Assembly: GCA_027858835.1 (NCBI GenBank)
Contig: JAQIBY010000095.1
Coordinates: forward strand, 1-56,354
Source: Bacteroidales bacterium
GTDB lineage: Bacteria > Bacteroidota > Bacteroidia > Bacteroidales > ML635J-15
Direction: 5' to 3'
DNA: 56,354 nucleotides
How positions within the stretch are numbered: the first letter of the stretch is position 1; each line of letters starts with the position of its first letter. Of this stretch, positions 53,039-56,354 are shown piece after piece. A program made the position numbers and the translations under genes. The notes under the pieces were generated by a model that was not told the DNA's origin, searched no databases, and saw only the letters and a list, made by a program, of their open reading frames with translations.

Positions 53039-53539
53039 CTAGTTTACTTTATACGCATCAGATTCAATATTTCCACTAAATGTATGTGTGATAGTGGCTG
53101 AAGCATCAGCCTTAACGATCCCTTGGAAACTAATTTTACTTGCTGAGGTTCTTGTAACTGTTCCGCTCTTTCCCCAATACATTTCGTCTGCTCCATTGTC
53201 GAGTAAATTATTCCCGGAAATTGTAAGTTGACATCTATCTCCATTTTCACCAGAACTCTCACTGATAGTAATATCAGCACCAATAGTTACAGGAACATTG
53301 GTAATAGTTATCACAAAATCTGAACCCGCACCTCCTAAGTTAACAGTATTGGCAGACATTAAAACTTTTTGTGAACTTGTCCCCTCGGCAACAATATTGC
53401 CATCCATTACTAATTGATAAGTCCCACTATTGTCTTTGGTTCCTGTAGCGGAATTATTATTATTATTATTATTGCATGAACTTGTTACTACAGTAAAGAG
53501 ACTTAATAAGATTGCAATTGCAAAAAATGATTTTTTCAT
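53039..53539 (-). CDS. Lipoprotein with poly-Asn linker
   Basis: A 166-residue predicted lipoprotein: signal peptide and lipobox (LFTVVTSSC) followed directly by seven Asn encoded by a pure ATT/AAT repeat. The mature domain is beta-rich (YQLVMDGNIVAEGTSS, VITITNVPVTIGADITISES, TVTRTSASKISFQGIVKADA), looking like a small beta-sandwich. I do not recognise a named family. Own promoter region with the ACCCTTAAGGGT palindrome and a terminator behind, so it is a single-gene unit. Confidence 0.75.
   Translation of the reverse strand: MKKSFFAIAILLSLFTVVTSSCNNNNNNNSATGTKDNSGTYQLVMDGNIVAEGTSSQKVLMSANTVNLGGAGSDFVITITNVPVTIGADITISESSGENGDRCQLTISGNNLLDNGADEMYWGKSGTVTRTSASKISFQGIVKADASATITHTFSGNIESDAYKVN
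53453..53473. repeat. Trinucleotide microsatellite (ATT)7
   Basis: Seven perfect ATT units (AAT on the coding strand) giving the Asn run after the lipid-modified Cys. Length changes would stay in frame and only vary the linker. Confidence 0.9.
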
Positions 53540-53578
53540 ATGAGATTAATTTATATTTGTTATTAGATTAATTATGTG

Positions 53579-53623
53579 CAAAAGAACAATGAAATTTTTT
53601 ATTGTTTCTCACCCTTAAGGGTG
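53579..53623 (-). promoter_or_regulatory. Palindromic operator plus -7-like element, upstream of the lipoprotein gene
   Basis: CACCCTTAAGGGTG (53610-53623) is a perfect 14-bp palindrome. Twenty-three bases separate it from CAAAAGAA (53579-53586), that is TTCTTTTG on the minus strand, a near match to TAnnTTTG. The same layout occurs at 56163-56207. The palindrome occupies the -33 position, as an activator site would. Confidence 0.65.
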
Positions 53624-53726
53624 ATTTTTATTGTTTTTCAATATTAATTTATGAGTATATTTTTATATAATTCTAAAAATAAGTATGTTGTTTGCAATCG
53701 AACGAATGCGGTCAAGTTGGCTTTTA

Positions 53727-54941
53727 TTATTGTTTAATAATTTTTATTAGTTTTTGGTTTTTGTTTTCGTCATTAAGTTTTATAAAATACGTAGCAGATT
53801 TTAACGAACTTAAATTTATTGTATTTTCGCCATTATATTTTTTCGATAATACTTCTTTACCAGAAATATCGTATATCGAAATATCGGAAATTGTATTTTT
53901 ATCGGCATTTATTAAATTTATTTTATCGATAAATGGATTTGGGTAAACTGATATATTAAGCTTTGATATTTCTGAAATTGCATCTAAACTTGTCGGACGC
54001 AGATAAGGATAACTTACACCTTCGTCTATTCCCCAAATAGTATCAAAATCCCAATTGTTGAAATTAGCTTCTTGTTTCATTTCGGCAGTGGTACGAGACG
54101 TTACTGTTTGGTCGCTGCCATTTCCAATACCAGAATATTGATTAGATGTTTCGCTATCGTAATAACAATCTTCAATAGTTGAAGAATCCACAAACCCTAC
54201 AAAACCGCCAACATTTTGATCTCCCGACACAACACCTGTTGAATAGCAATTCACAATAGTTGTAGAAGAAATTATTCCTACAAGACCGCCAACTCTGGAA
54301 TAACTTCCCGATACTGCACCTGTTGAATAGCAATTTGCAATAGTTACAGAAGAAGAATTATATCCTATAAGACCGCCAACTTGAAATACTCCCGTAACAG
54401 AAGCTGTTGAATAGCAATTTCCAACAATTGCATTAGATAAACAACATCCTATAAGACCGCCAACATCTTCATTTCCTGACACAACACCTGTTGAATAGCA
54501 GTTTTCAATAGTTGAACCATCTCTATGTCCTATAAGACCGCCAACTTTATTATTTCCCGACACATTACAATTAATAAGACCAAGGTCGTATATTACTGCA
54601 TTAAAGGTATATCCAAATAGTCCTATATAATCGGTAGAACTTCTGTTGATAAATAAATCACTAATTGTGTGGTTGTTTCCGTTAAAACTACCCATAAAGC
54701 CGTCACTATAGTCATTTATTGGCAACCAACCTTCACCACTTTGATATTCCGAGCCATTAAAATCGAGGTCGTTATTTAGTATAAAATGCATGTTAAATTG
54801 GTTTCTCACTTCGTTAAGTTCTGTAATTGTTGTAATTTGGTATGGGTTTTCTTCCGAGCCATCTCCACCTGCAAATTGTGCATTTACACTTGTTGTTGCA
54901 AGTATTATTGCCGCGATTGTAAGGACTAAATTTATTTTCAT
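53727..54941 (-). CDS. GLUG-repeat surface protein, T9SS type A cargo
   Basis: A 404-residue secreted protein. Signal peptide (LTIAAIILATTSVNA), then an N-terminal piece GGDGSEENPYQITTITEL. From about residue 60 to 250 come GLUG-type repeats (VGGLIGHRDGSTIENCYSTG; five to six clear copies, also visible as DNA repeats around CACCTGTTGAATAGCAAT) expected to form a beta-solenoid. From ~324 to the end is a type A sorting domain (ISVYPNPFIDKINLI to KLIKIIKQ). It begins 28 bases behind the lipoprotein gene, so the two form an operon. Likely an adhesin. Confidence 0.88.
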   Translation of the reverse strand: MKINLVLTIAAIILATTSVNAQFAGGDGSEENPYQITTITELNEVRNQFNMHFILNNDLDFNGSEYQSGEGWLPINDYSDGFMGSFNGNNHTISDLFINRSSTDYIGLFGYTFNAVIYDLGLINCNVSGNNKVGGLIGHRDGSTIENCYSTGVVSGNEDVGGLIGCCLSNAIVGNCYSTASVTGVFQVGGLIGYNSSSVTIANCYSTGAVSGSYSRVGGLVGIISSTTIVNCYSTGVVSGDQNVGGFVGFVDSSTIEDCYYDSETSNQYSGIGNGSDQTVTSRTTAEMKQEANFNNWDFDTIWGIDEGVSYPYLRPTSLDAISEISKLNISVYPNPFIDKINLINADKNTISDISIYDISGKEVLSKKYNGENTINLSSLKSATYFIKLNDENKNQKLIKIIKQ

Positions 54942-54969
54942 AACTTTTTGTTTTATTAATTATTTTAAT

Positions 54970-56118
54970 CTATTCTTCTTCGTAAATAACAAATTCTGTA
55001 TAAGTTTCATCTCCATCAGAGACATATCTGCTTGTGGGCGCATACCATTTATCTAAACTAACATAAGCTATTCCTCTAGTTGAATGGTAATCAGAATCGT
55101 TAAAACAGGAAACTGCTGTCCAAGTTTCTCCACCATTTGTAGTTTTGTAAATATCAGATGCTCCTACTCCTAAACCATTTTGAGCATCGAAAAAGTTAAT
55201 GTAATATAAATCAGGACCAGAATAGTTTGCAGATAGAGGTTTTTTAGTCCATGTAATTCCCCCATCGGTAGTTTTAAATATGGTGTTATTGATTTGGTCC
55301 TGTTCGGGAGCAAGAACATACCCTGTATTATTAGTTGGGAAATTGACGTCATAAATCCCACTTGTTTCTAATGCAGTATATGTCCATGTTAGACCGAAAT
55401 CTGCAGATCTTGCCATATATATATCTGCATCACCACTCAACATTTTTATAGGCAGATTAATAACTCCATCTTCAGAAAGACTCATATCTACTTCAGCATT
55501 GAATTCTAAACTTACAGGCAATTCTATTGTCTGAGTAATTTCATGTGTTGTATTTGATACTCTATATAAAACACTAAGATTACTCTCGTGCCCATAAATA
55601 TCATGTCCAATAAATACCGCGTCTGTACTATTTACCGCAAGCACATCCCATGTGCCAAATGCAGCATCAGTTATTTCTGTCCATGTTTGTCCTTTATCTG
55701 TAGTGTGTTTTATCCTATTAGCATTACCCATACCAGTGATCCAAGCACTTTTTTCTATCATATATCCACCAGTAGAGTTATGGAAATCAAAATATGGTTC
55801 TGATGTACCACCCCATGTTTGCACTTTAAAATCTGTATTCATTACGCTCCAAGTTAAGCCTCCATCTTCAGTATGTAGAAGCGTTGTTTCGCTACTTTCA
55901 TCGACACCTCTTCCGAATAACCAACCCTCTGTTGGATTTATAAAATTTATAGATCTCGCATAATCTATAGTATTTGAGATATCTATTGCGTTAAAACAAT
56001 TTTCGGTTTCAATTGGATTAGGATCTATTGGATCAGGATCGTCCAAATCTTTTTCGCAGGCTGTTAGAAATAAACTGAATGCAAGAATGGTTGTAATAAA
56101 TTGAATTTTTTTAGTCAT
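54970..56118 (-). CDS. Surface lipoprotein with YCF48/BNR-like propeller repeats
   Basis: A 382-residue predicted lipoprotein: lipobox LFLTAC followed by EKDLDDPDPIDPNP, an acidic Lys-Asp stretch like the lipoprotein export signal that sends Bacteroidota lipoproteins to the cell surface. The body has YCF48/BNR-type blades, each with an Asp-box-like turn (TEDGGLTWSV, TTDKGQTWTEI, SADFGLTWTYT, TTDGGITWTKK, TTNGGETWTAV). It should fold as a beta-propeller. First gene of an operon with the GLUG protein; the palindromic operator lies 76-89 bases upstream. Confidence 0.85.
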   Translation of the reverse strand: MTKKIQFITTILAFSLFLTACEKDLDDPDPIDPNPIETENCFNAIDISNTIDYARSINFINPTEGWLFGRGVDESSETTLLHTEDGGLTWSVMNTDFKVQTWGGTSEPYFDFHNSTGGYMIEKSAWITGMGNANRIKHTTDKGQTWTEITDAAFGTWDVLAVNSTDAVFIGHDIYGHESNLSVLYRVSNTTHEITQTIELPVSLEFNAEVDMSLSEDGVINLPIKMLSGDADIYMARSADFGLTWTYTALETSGIYDVNFPTNNTGYVLAPEQDQINNTIFKTTDGGITWTKKPLSANYSGPDLYYINFFDAQNGLGVGASDIYKTTNGGETWTAVSCFNDSDYHSTRGIAYVSLDKWYAPTSRYVSDGDETYTEFVIYEEE

Positions 56119-56162
56119 TAGAAATCATCTTTAAATTTATAATTAAACATTTGAATTAACTG

Positions 56163-56207
56163 CAAATTAACAGTTAAATGATGGGATTTCTCTTACCCTA
56201 AAGGGTA
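56163..56207 (-). promoter_or_regulatory. Palindromic operator plus -7-like element, upstream of the surface lipoprotein operon
   Basis: TACCCTAAAGGGTA (56194-56207; one central mismatch from a perfect palindrome), then 23 bases to CAAATTAA (56163-56170), that is TTAATTTG on the minus strand. The spacing is identical to that of the 53579-53623 site. Confidence 0.65.
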
Positions 56208-56256
56208 GTATTTAAATAAATATCAAATTCCCGAAACATCTAATAAAACTGTAAGT

Positions 56257-56280
56257 GTCACACAGTCTGACGATTGTGAC
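56257..56280 (-). terminator. Weak hairpin behind the edge regulator gene
   Basis: GTCACA pairs with TGTGAC around a 12-base loop; on the minus strand a broken T-rich stretch follows. Possible weak terminator for the gene ending at 56295. Confidence 0.25.
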
Positions 56281-56294
56281 TTTATGGGTGATTT

Positions 56295-56354
56295 CTAAAA
56301 AATGTCAATTCTTTTTAAGGCTTCCACACGATTTCTTACATCGAGTTTTATATA
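56295..56354 (-). CDS. Partial gene: C-terminus of a probable LuxR-type HTH regulator
   Basis: Only the last ~18 codons are in the window: IKLDVRNRVEALKRIDIF and a stop. This resembles the final helix of LuxR/NarL-type DNA-binding domains (typical form YxKLGVxNRVEAVxxA). The gene runs on beyond the right edge. It is transcribed toward the operator-bearing lipoprotein operon, so it is a candidate regulator of it. Confidence 0.45.
   Translation of the reverse strand, partial: YIKLDVRNRVEALKRIDIF

Follow-up and report, generated by a model that had tools for sequence, protein, structure and literature searches.

Recurring palindromes as predicted operators of a truncated LuxR-type regulator at two surface-protein transcription units of a Bacteroidales bacterium

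The window, by which we mean the whole 56,354-nucleotide stretch of Bacteroidales DNA that was analysed, carries two transcription units at its right end, both read from the minus strand. Unit 1 contains the gene for a small lipoprotein of 166 aa (53039 to 53539, start codon at 53539). Unit 2 opens with the gene for a 382-aa lipoprotein with BNR/YCF48-type repeats, whose lipobox was read from the sequence (54970 to 56118, start codon at 56118), and continues after a gap of 28 bp with the gene for a 404-aa GLUG-repeat protein that carries a type A T9SS sorting domain (53727 to 54941). This content agrees with the first-pass annotation, which had proposed two lipoproteins and a GLUG T9SS protein as the targets of one regulator. 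In BLASTP the 166-aa lipoprotein matches, at 27% over 158 aa, a lipoprotein encoded downstream of the same kind of palindrome in the related genome G080; both are sub-threshold matches to the Riean_0653 family, and the G080 protein is probably a relative of the window protein. Single-sequence structure prediction of the 166-aa lipoprotein was poor (mean pLDDT 37), and the BNR lipoprotein used as a query returned no useful orthologs.

The contig ends at 56354, inside a LuxR-type regulator gene on the minus strand, of which the C-terminal 19 codons and the stop codon are present (YIKLDVRNRVEALKRIDIF and stop, 56295 to 56354). The fragment is identical at 14 of 18 residues to the end of a TPR-LuxR protein from genome G063, which bears out the earlier assignment of this edge reading frame to the LuxR type. 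It also resembles the end of a GerE HTH domain, and its 19 residues are too short for a domain call. We sought the rest of the gene in the whole assembly and found no other piece. A sequence beginning ACTCTATAAGGTTTTGACC occurs near the ends of five G000 contigs (C38, C42, C86, C92 and C160; loci L008, L009, L019, L021 and L029) and probably represents a repeat that has been collapsed and at which the assembly breaks.

Each unit is preceded by a dyad, with an A-rich stretch immediately 5′ of it, that we predict to be an operator. Dyad 1 (53609 to 53624, minus strand) is a perfect 16-bp palindrome, TCACCCTTAAGGGTGA, with the inner 14-mer CACCCTTAAGGGTG at 53610 to 53623. Dyad 2 (56193 to 56208, minus strand) reads CTACCCTTTAGGGTAA over 16 bp; its inner 14-mer, TACCCTAAAGGGTA at 56194 to 56207, has a single central mismatch, and its CTACCC..GGGTAA form deviates from the TCACCC form. 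Both palindromes thus lie where the first reading had placed them. The 3.6-Mb genome holds two copies of ACCCTWAAGGGT, which are the two window sites, and two exact copies of ACCCTnnAGGGT, both at the window promoters, so the motif is not scattered at random, as the earlier proposal required. Among the loci checked, all one-mismatch copies of ACCCTnnAGGGT fall within ORFs except the one at L080. A dinucleotide model gives an expectation of 0.27 copies of ACCCTWWAGGGT per genome, and of 0.0006 per genome for the dyad followed by N24 and TTnnTTTG, which was observed twice; as the motif was defined after being seen in the window, these expectations are descriptive, and the independent test is conservation elsewhere.

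Promoters of Bacteroidota do not have the usual -10 and -35 boxes, and to our knowledge little has been established about how activators act on them. Promoters used by the sigma factor sigma-ABfr carry a -7 element, TAnnTTTG, and a second element near -33 (PMC7366714). On the minus strand both window sites read GGGT-N24-TTnnTTTGCA, with TT in place of the TA of TAnnTTTG. Box 1, TTCTTTTG followed by CA (53579 to 53586, minus strand), and box 2, TTAATTTG followed by CA (56163 to 56170, minus strand), each lie 22 bp downstream of their dyads; together with the CA, the 10-base stretches are TTCTTTTGCA at site 1 and TTAATTTGCA at site 2. Measured from the 14-mer instead of the 16-mer the gap is 23 bases, the distance that had been claimed between palindrome and TTnnTTTG element at both sites. 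Transcription is predicted to start near 53575 for unit 1 and near 56159 for unit 2. The first-pass annotation had set the palindrome at -33; because we take the box as a -7 element starting at -11, the centre of the dyad moves to near -41.5, a correction that holds provided the box is indeed the -7 element. Class II activators bind near -41.5, and the dyads would occupy this position if the boxes are sigma-ABfr -7 elements. The A-rich sequence before the dyad could then be a candidate contact for the polymerase alpha subunit.

We searched 393 genomes of the same order for TCACCCnnnnGGGTGA-N22-TAnnTTTG, allowing no more than one mismatch, and obtained 19 matches in 14 genomes, against 0 for a reversed control that preserves the symmetry of the dyad but not its local base context. 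Of these 19, nine have a LuxR gene as their immediate neighbour (2e-12 against a generous LuxR gene density, with related genomes that are not independent samples). Seven matches lie in MalT-like LuxR loci, and we set these aside as support, since the T-runs that follow their dyads look terminator-like; with them removed, 12 matches are left, of which 4 lie next to a LuxR gene (2e-5 at the same generous density). MalT-like genes at L192, L193, L200, L203, L206 and L208 have TCACCCnnnnGGGTGA and a T-run downstream, also N22 from a -7-like box, and these dyads may be terminators, operators or both. Loci L098, L104 and L114, which carry long hairpins, were judged to be chance or terminators and were rejected. 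In G080, G276 and G191 a TPR-LuxR gene is followed by TCACCCnnnnGGGTGA, N22, a TAnnTTTG-like box and a lipoprotein gene, the same arrangement as at window site 2; the proposal that the LuxR-type neighbour is the candidate regulator is strengthened by this recurrence of the same kind of regulator directly upstream of dyad, spacing and lipoprotein gene. G063 encodes one TPR-LuxR protein and has three sites, each before a lipoprotein or secreted-protein gene, with no dyad directly downstream of the regulator gene. Genomes with the regulator coincide with those that have non-terminator-like sites (Fisher 2e-6).

A search that started from the regulator, with a profile of its C-terminal 190 residues and E below 1e-30, found 14 genes in 13 genomes. 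Among the genes that the DNA pattern had missed, the region downstream of the regulator has TCACAC..GTGTGA in G270 and G365, CTACCC..GGGTAG in G189 and G238, and an imperfect CTACCTCTTGGGGTAG in G033; the G178 sequence stops within AATCACCC. The regulator is present in G071 (first copy) and G361, and no dyad lies right downstream of it in either. For G270, G365, G189 and G238, 37 offsets were tested, and in each the strongest -7-like box came at offset 22; such agreement has a probability of about 2e-5 if G270 and G365 are treated as one case. The G238 box is weak (4/6). In these relatives the dyad has changed on both sides, with the box still 22 bp away. G005, from the window's own family, has the regulator, then CTACCCCTTAGGGTAG-N22-TACTTTTG, then a gene for an OmpA-type protein; this locus was found through a DNA pattern and not the protein search. 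The outer bases of the dyad follow the recognition helix, with KTH accompanying TCAC dyads and KFH or KYH accompanying CTAC dyads (Fisher 0.005-0.008, with relatedness ignored). A second TPR-LuxR subfamily of the KFH/KYH kind with CTACCC-type dyads was seen at L123, L218, L220 and L219. It adjoins OmpA-like genes at L123, L219 and L220, and at L218 a stand-alone LuxR HTH ORF of 66 aa lies between the regulator and the OmpA-like gene.

Because the window gene is truncated by the contig end, the architecture of the regulator is taken from its relatives, which the window protein would share. Full-length relatives are 506-523 aa long and consist of a signal sequence, mostly with a lipobox, a TPR region, a coiled coil, one transmembrane helix and a LuxR HTH; a lipobox is found at the N-terminus of most KTH-type relatives, and both it and the transmembrane helix were read by eye. 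The G080 regulator has TPR and GerE domains only (PF00196 GerE HTH, Pfam 3e-18), with the receiver domain absent, and similar solved structures exist for the regulator's HTH domain. In the G063 regulator the TPR-TM half scores E 3e-35 against NF053520, under the family cut-off; the match is limited to that part, and the C-terminal half is a LuxR HTH with no histidine kinase domain. The full-length relatives carry no ATPase module ahead of the TPR region. From the order lipobox, TPR, transmembrane helix and HTH we predict that the TPR domain is periplasmic and that the signal is probably periplasmic as well. Among the papers searched we found no study of this type of regulator.

We consider it likely that the window dyads are operators of the truncated, membrane-anchored LuxR-type regulator, which would activate both surface-protein units as a class II activator. 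The dyad is the probable landing site of such a regulator because dyad, distance and neighbouring regulator gene recur in distant relatives. The regulator would be a one-component protein with a predicted periplasmic TPR domain, one transmembrane helix and a cytoplasmic LuxR HTH. We envisage the HTH bound as a dimer to the 16-bp dyad, centred near -41.5, and touching the primary sigma factor at promoters that lack a good -33 element; it would activate the small lipoprotein of unit 1 and the BNR lipoprotein and T9SS-secreted GLUG protein of unit 2. We count against this reading that 19 residues of the window regulator are available, that G071 and G361 have no adjoining dyad, and that the dyad at site 2 does not follow the TCACCC form.

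LuxR-type proteins can also repress from sites that overlap a promoter, and the same regulator on the same operator might block RNA polymerase near the sigma contact region until a signal releases it. The comparative evidence for regulator and operator fits repression too, but a centre near -41.5, a fixed spacing and TT for TA in the boxes are the expected look of a class II activator site, and we regard repression as unlikely. That the dyads are instead transcription terminators or other RNA hairpins is suggested by site 1, called terminator-like on the plus strand, and by the TCACCC..GGGTGA dyads that precede T-runs in the MalT-like loci. Yet no plus-strand gene terminates at site 1, no T-run follows either window dyad on the minus (transcribed) strand or the dyads of G063, G080, G276, G191, G270, G365 and G005, and a constant distance from dyad to -7-like box would be unexpected of terminators, so that we judge this highly improbable.

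In G223 (L090, around 1501-1512) a ACCCTAAAGGGT dyad and a TATATTTG box stand directly before a HipB-like gene in a hipBA-like locus. This site, and the G063 sites that do not adjoin their regulator, would fit a dyad bound by a different, unrelated protein, with the LuxR neighbour a coincidence. We think this highly improbable, given the share of non-terminator-like sites that adjoin a LuxR gene (4 of 12), the recovery of the dyad in the regulator-first search, and the tracking of the HTH helix by the outer bases of the dyad.

The activator proposed here, by prediction a one-component regulator of the LuxR type whose operator and promoter geometry are likewise predicted, can be set beside several known systems. 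Like the NarL/FixJ-LuxR (GerE, PF00196) regulators NarL, DosR/DevR and VraR, it combines this HTH domain with a short palindromic operator, which here is a prediction. The half-site TACCC of the dyad resembles the NarL heptamer TACYYMT (PMC4886647). Unlike that group, the relatives have TPR and one transmembrane helix instead of a receiver domain, and the predicted operator ACCCnnnnGGGT stands at a fixed N24 from a Bacteroidota -7 box. The TPR-TM half of the G063 regulator is like that of the FimS-type TPR sensor histidine kinase of Porphyromonas, but an HTH domain replaces the kinase, which makes it a one-component rather than a two-component system. MalT-like LuxR regulators also fuse a helical-repeat sensor to a LuxR HTH, with the helix motif NTVKTHLKN; they differ in their length of about 900 aa and in an ATPase-like region at the N-terminus. 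Neither a signal sequence nor a membrane anchor was noted in them, and the dyads near them look like terminators. DadR, CadR and HcdR of Eggerthella lenta are membrane-spanning LuxR regulators with 10-12 transmembrane helices (PMC9734109). They are similar in being membrane-bound one-component LuxR regulators beside their targets, where they act as activators, as we infer here; they differ from the TPR-LuxR relatives in their number of helices, in having no TPR domain and in belonging to another phylum.

We offer more tentatively, as a possibility that we hold at somewhat less than even, that membrane-anchored TPR-LuxR regulators form a widespread Bacteroidota family in which every member has a surface-protein gene next to it as its partner, and that they act from class II sites on sigma-ABfr promoters, with one recognition-helix residue specifying the operator (KTH for TCACCC..GGGTGA, KFH or KYH for CTACCC..GGGTAG). 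In such a family the predicted periplasmic TPR domain might monitor the condition of whichever surface protein it controls. What the window and its relatives present is a compact, conserved unit of regulator, operator and promoter, with a fixed geometry and a readable difference in specificity, and such a unit would allow targets to be predicted from sequence and the working of an activator with sigma-ABfr to be probed.
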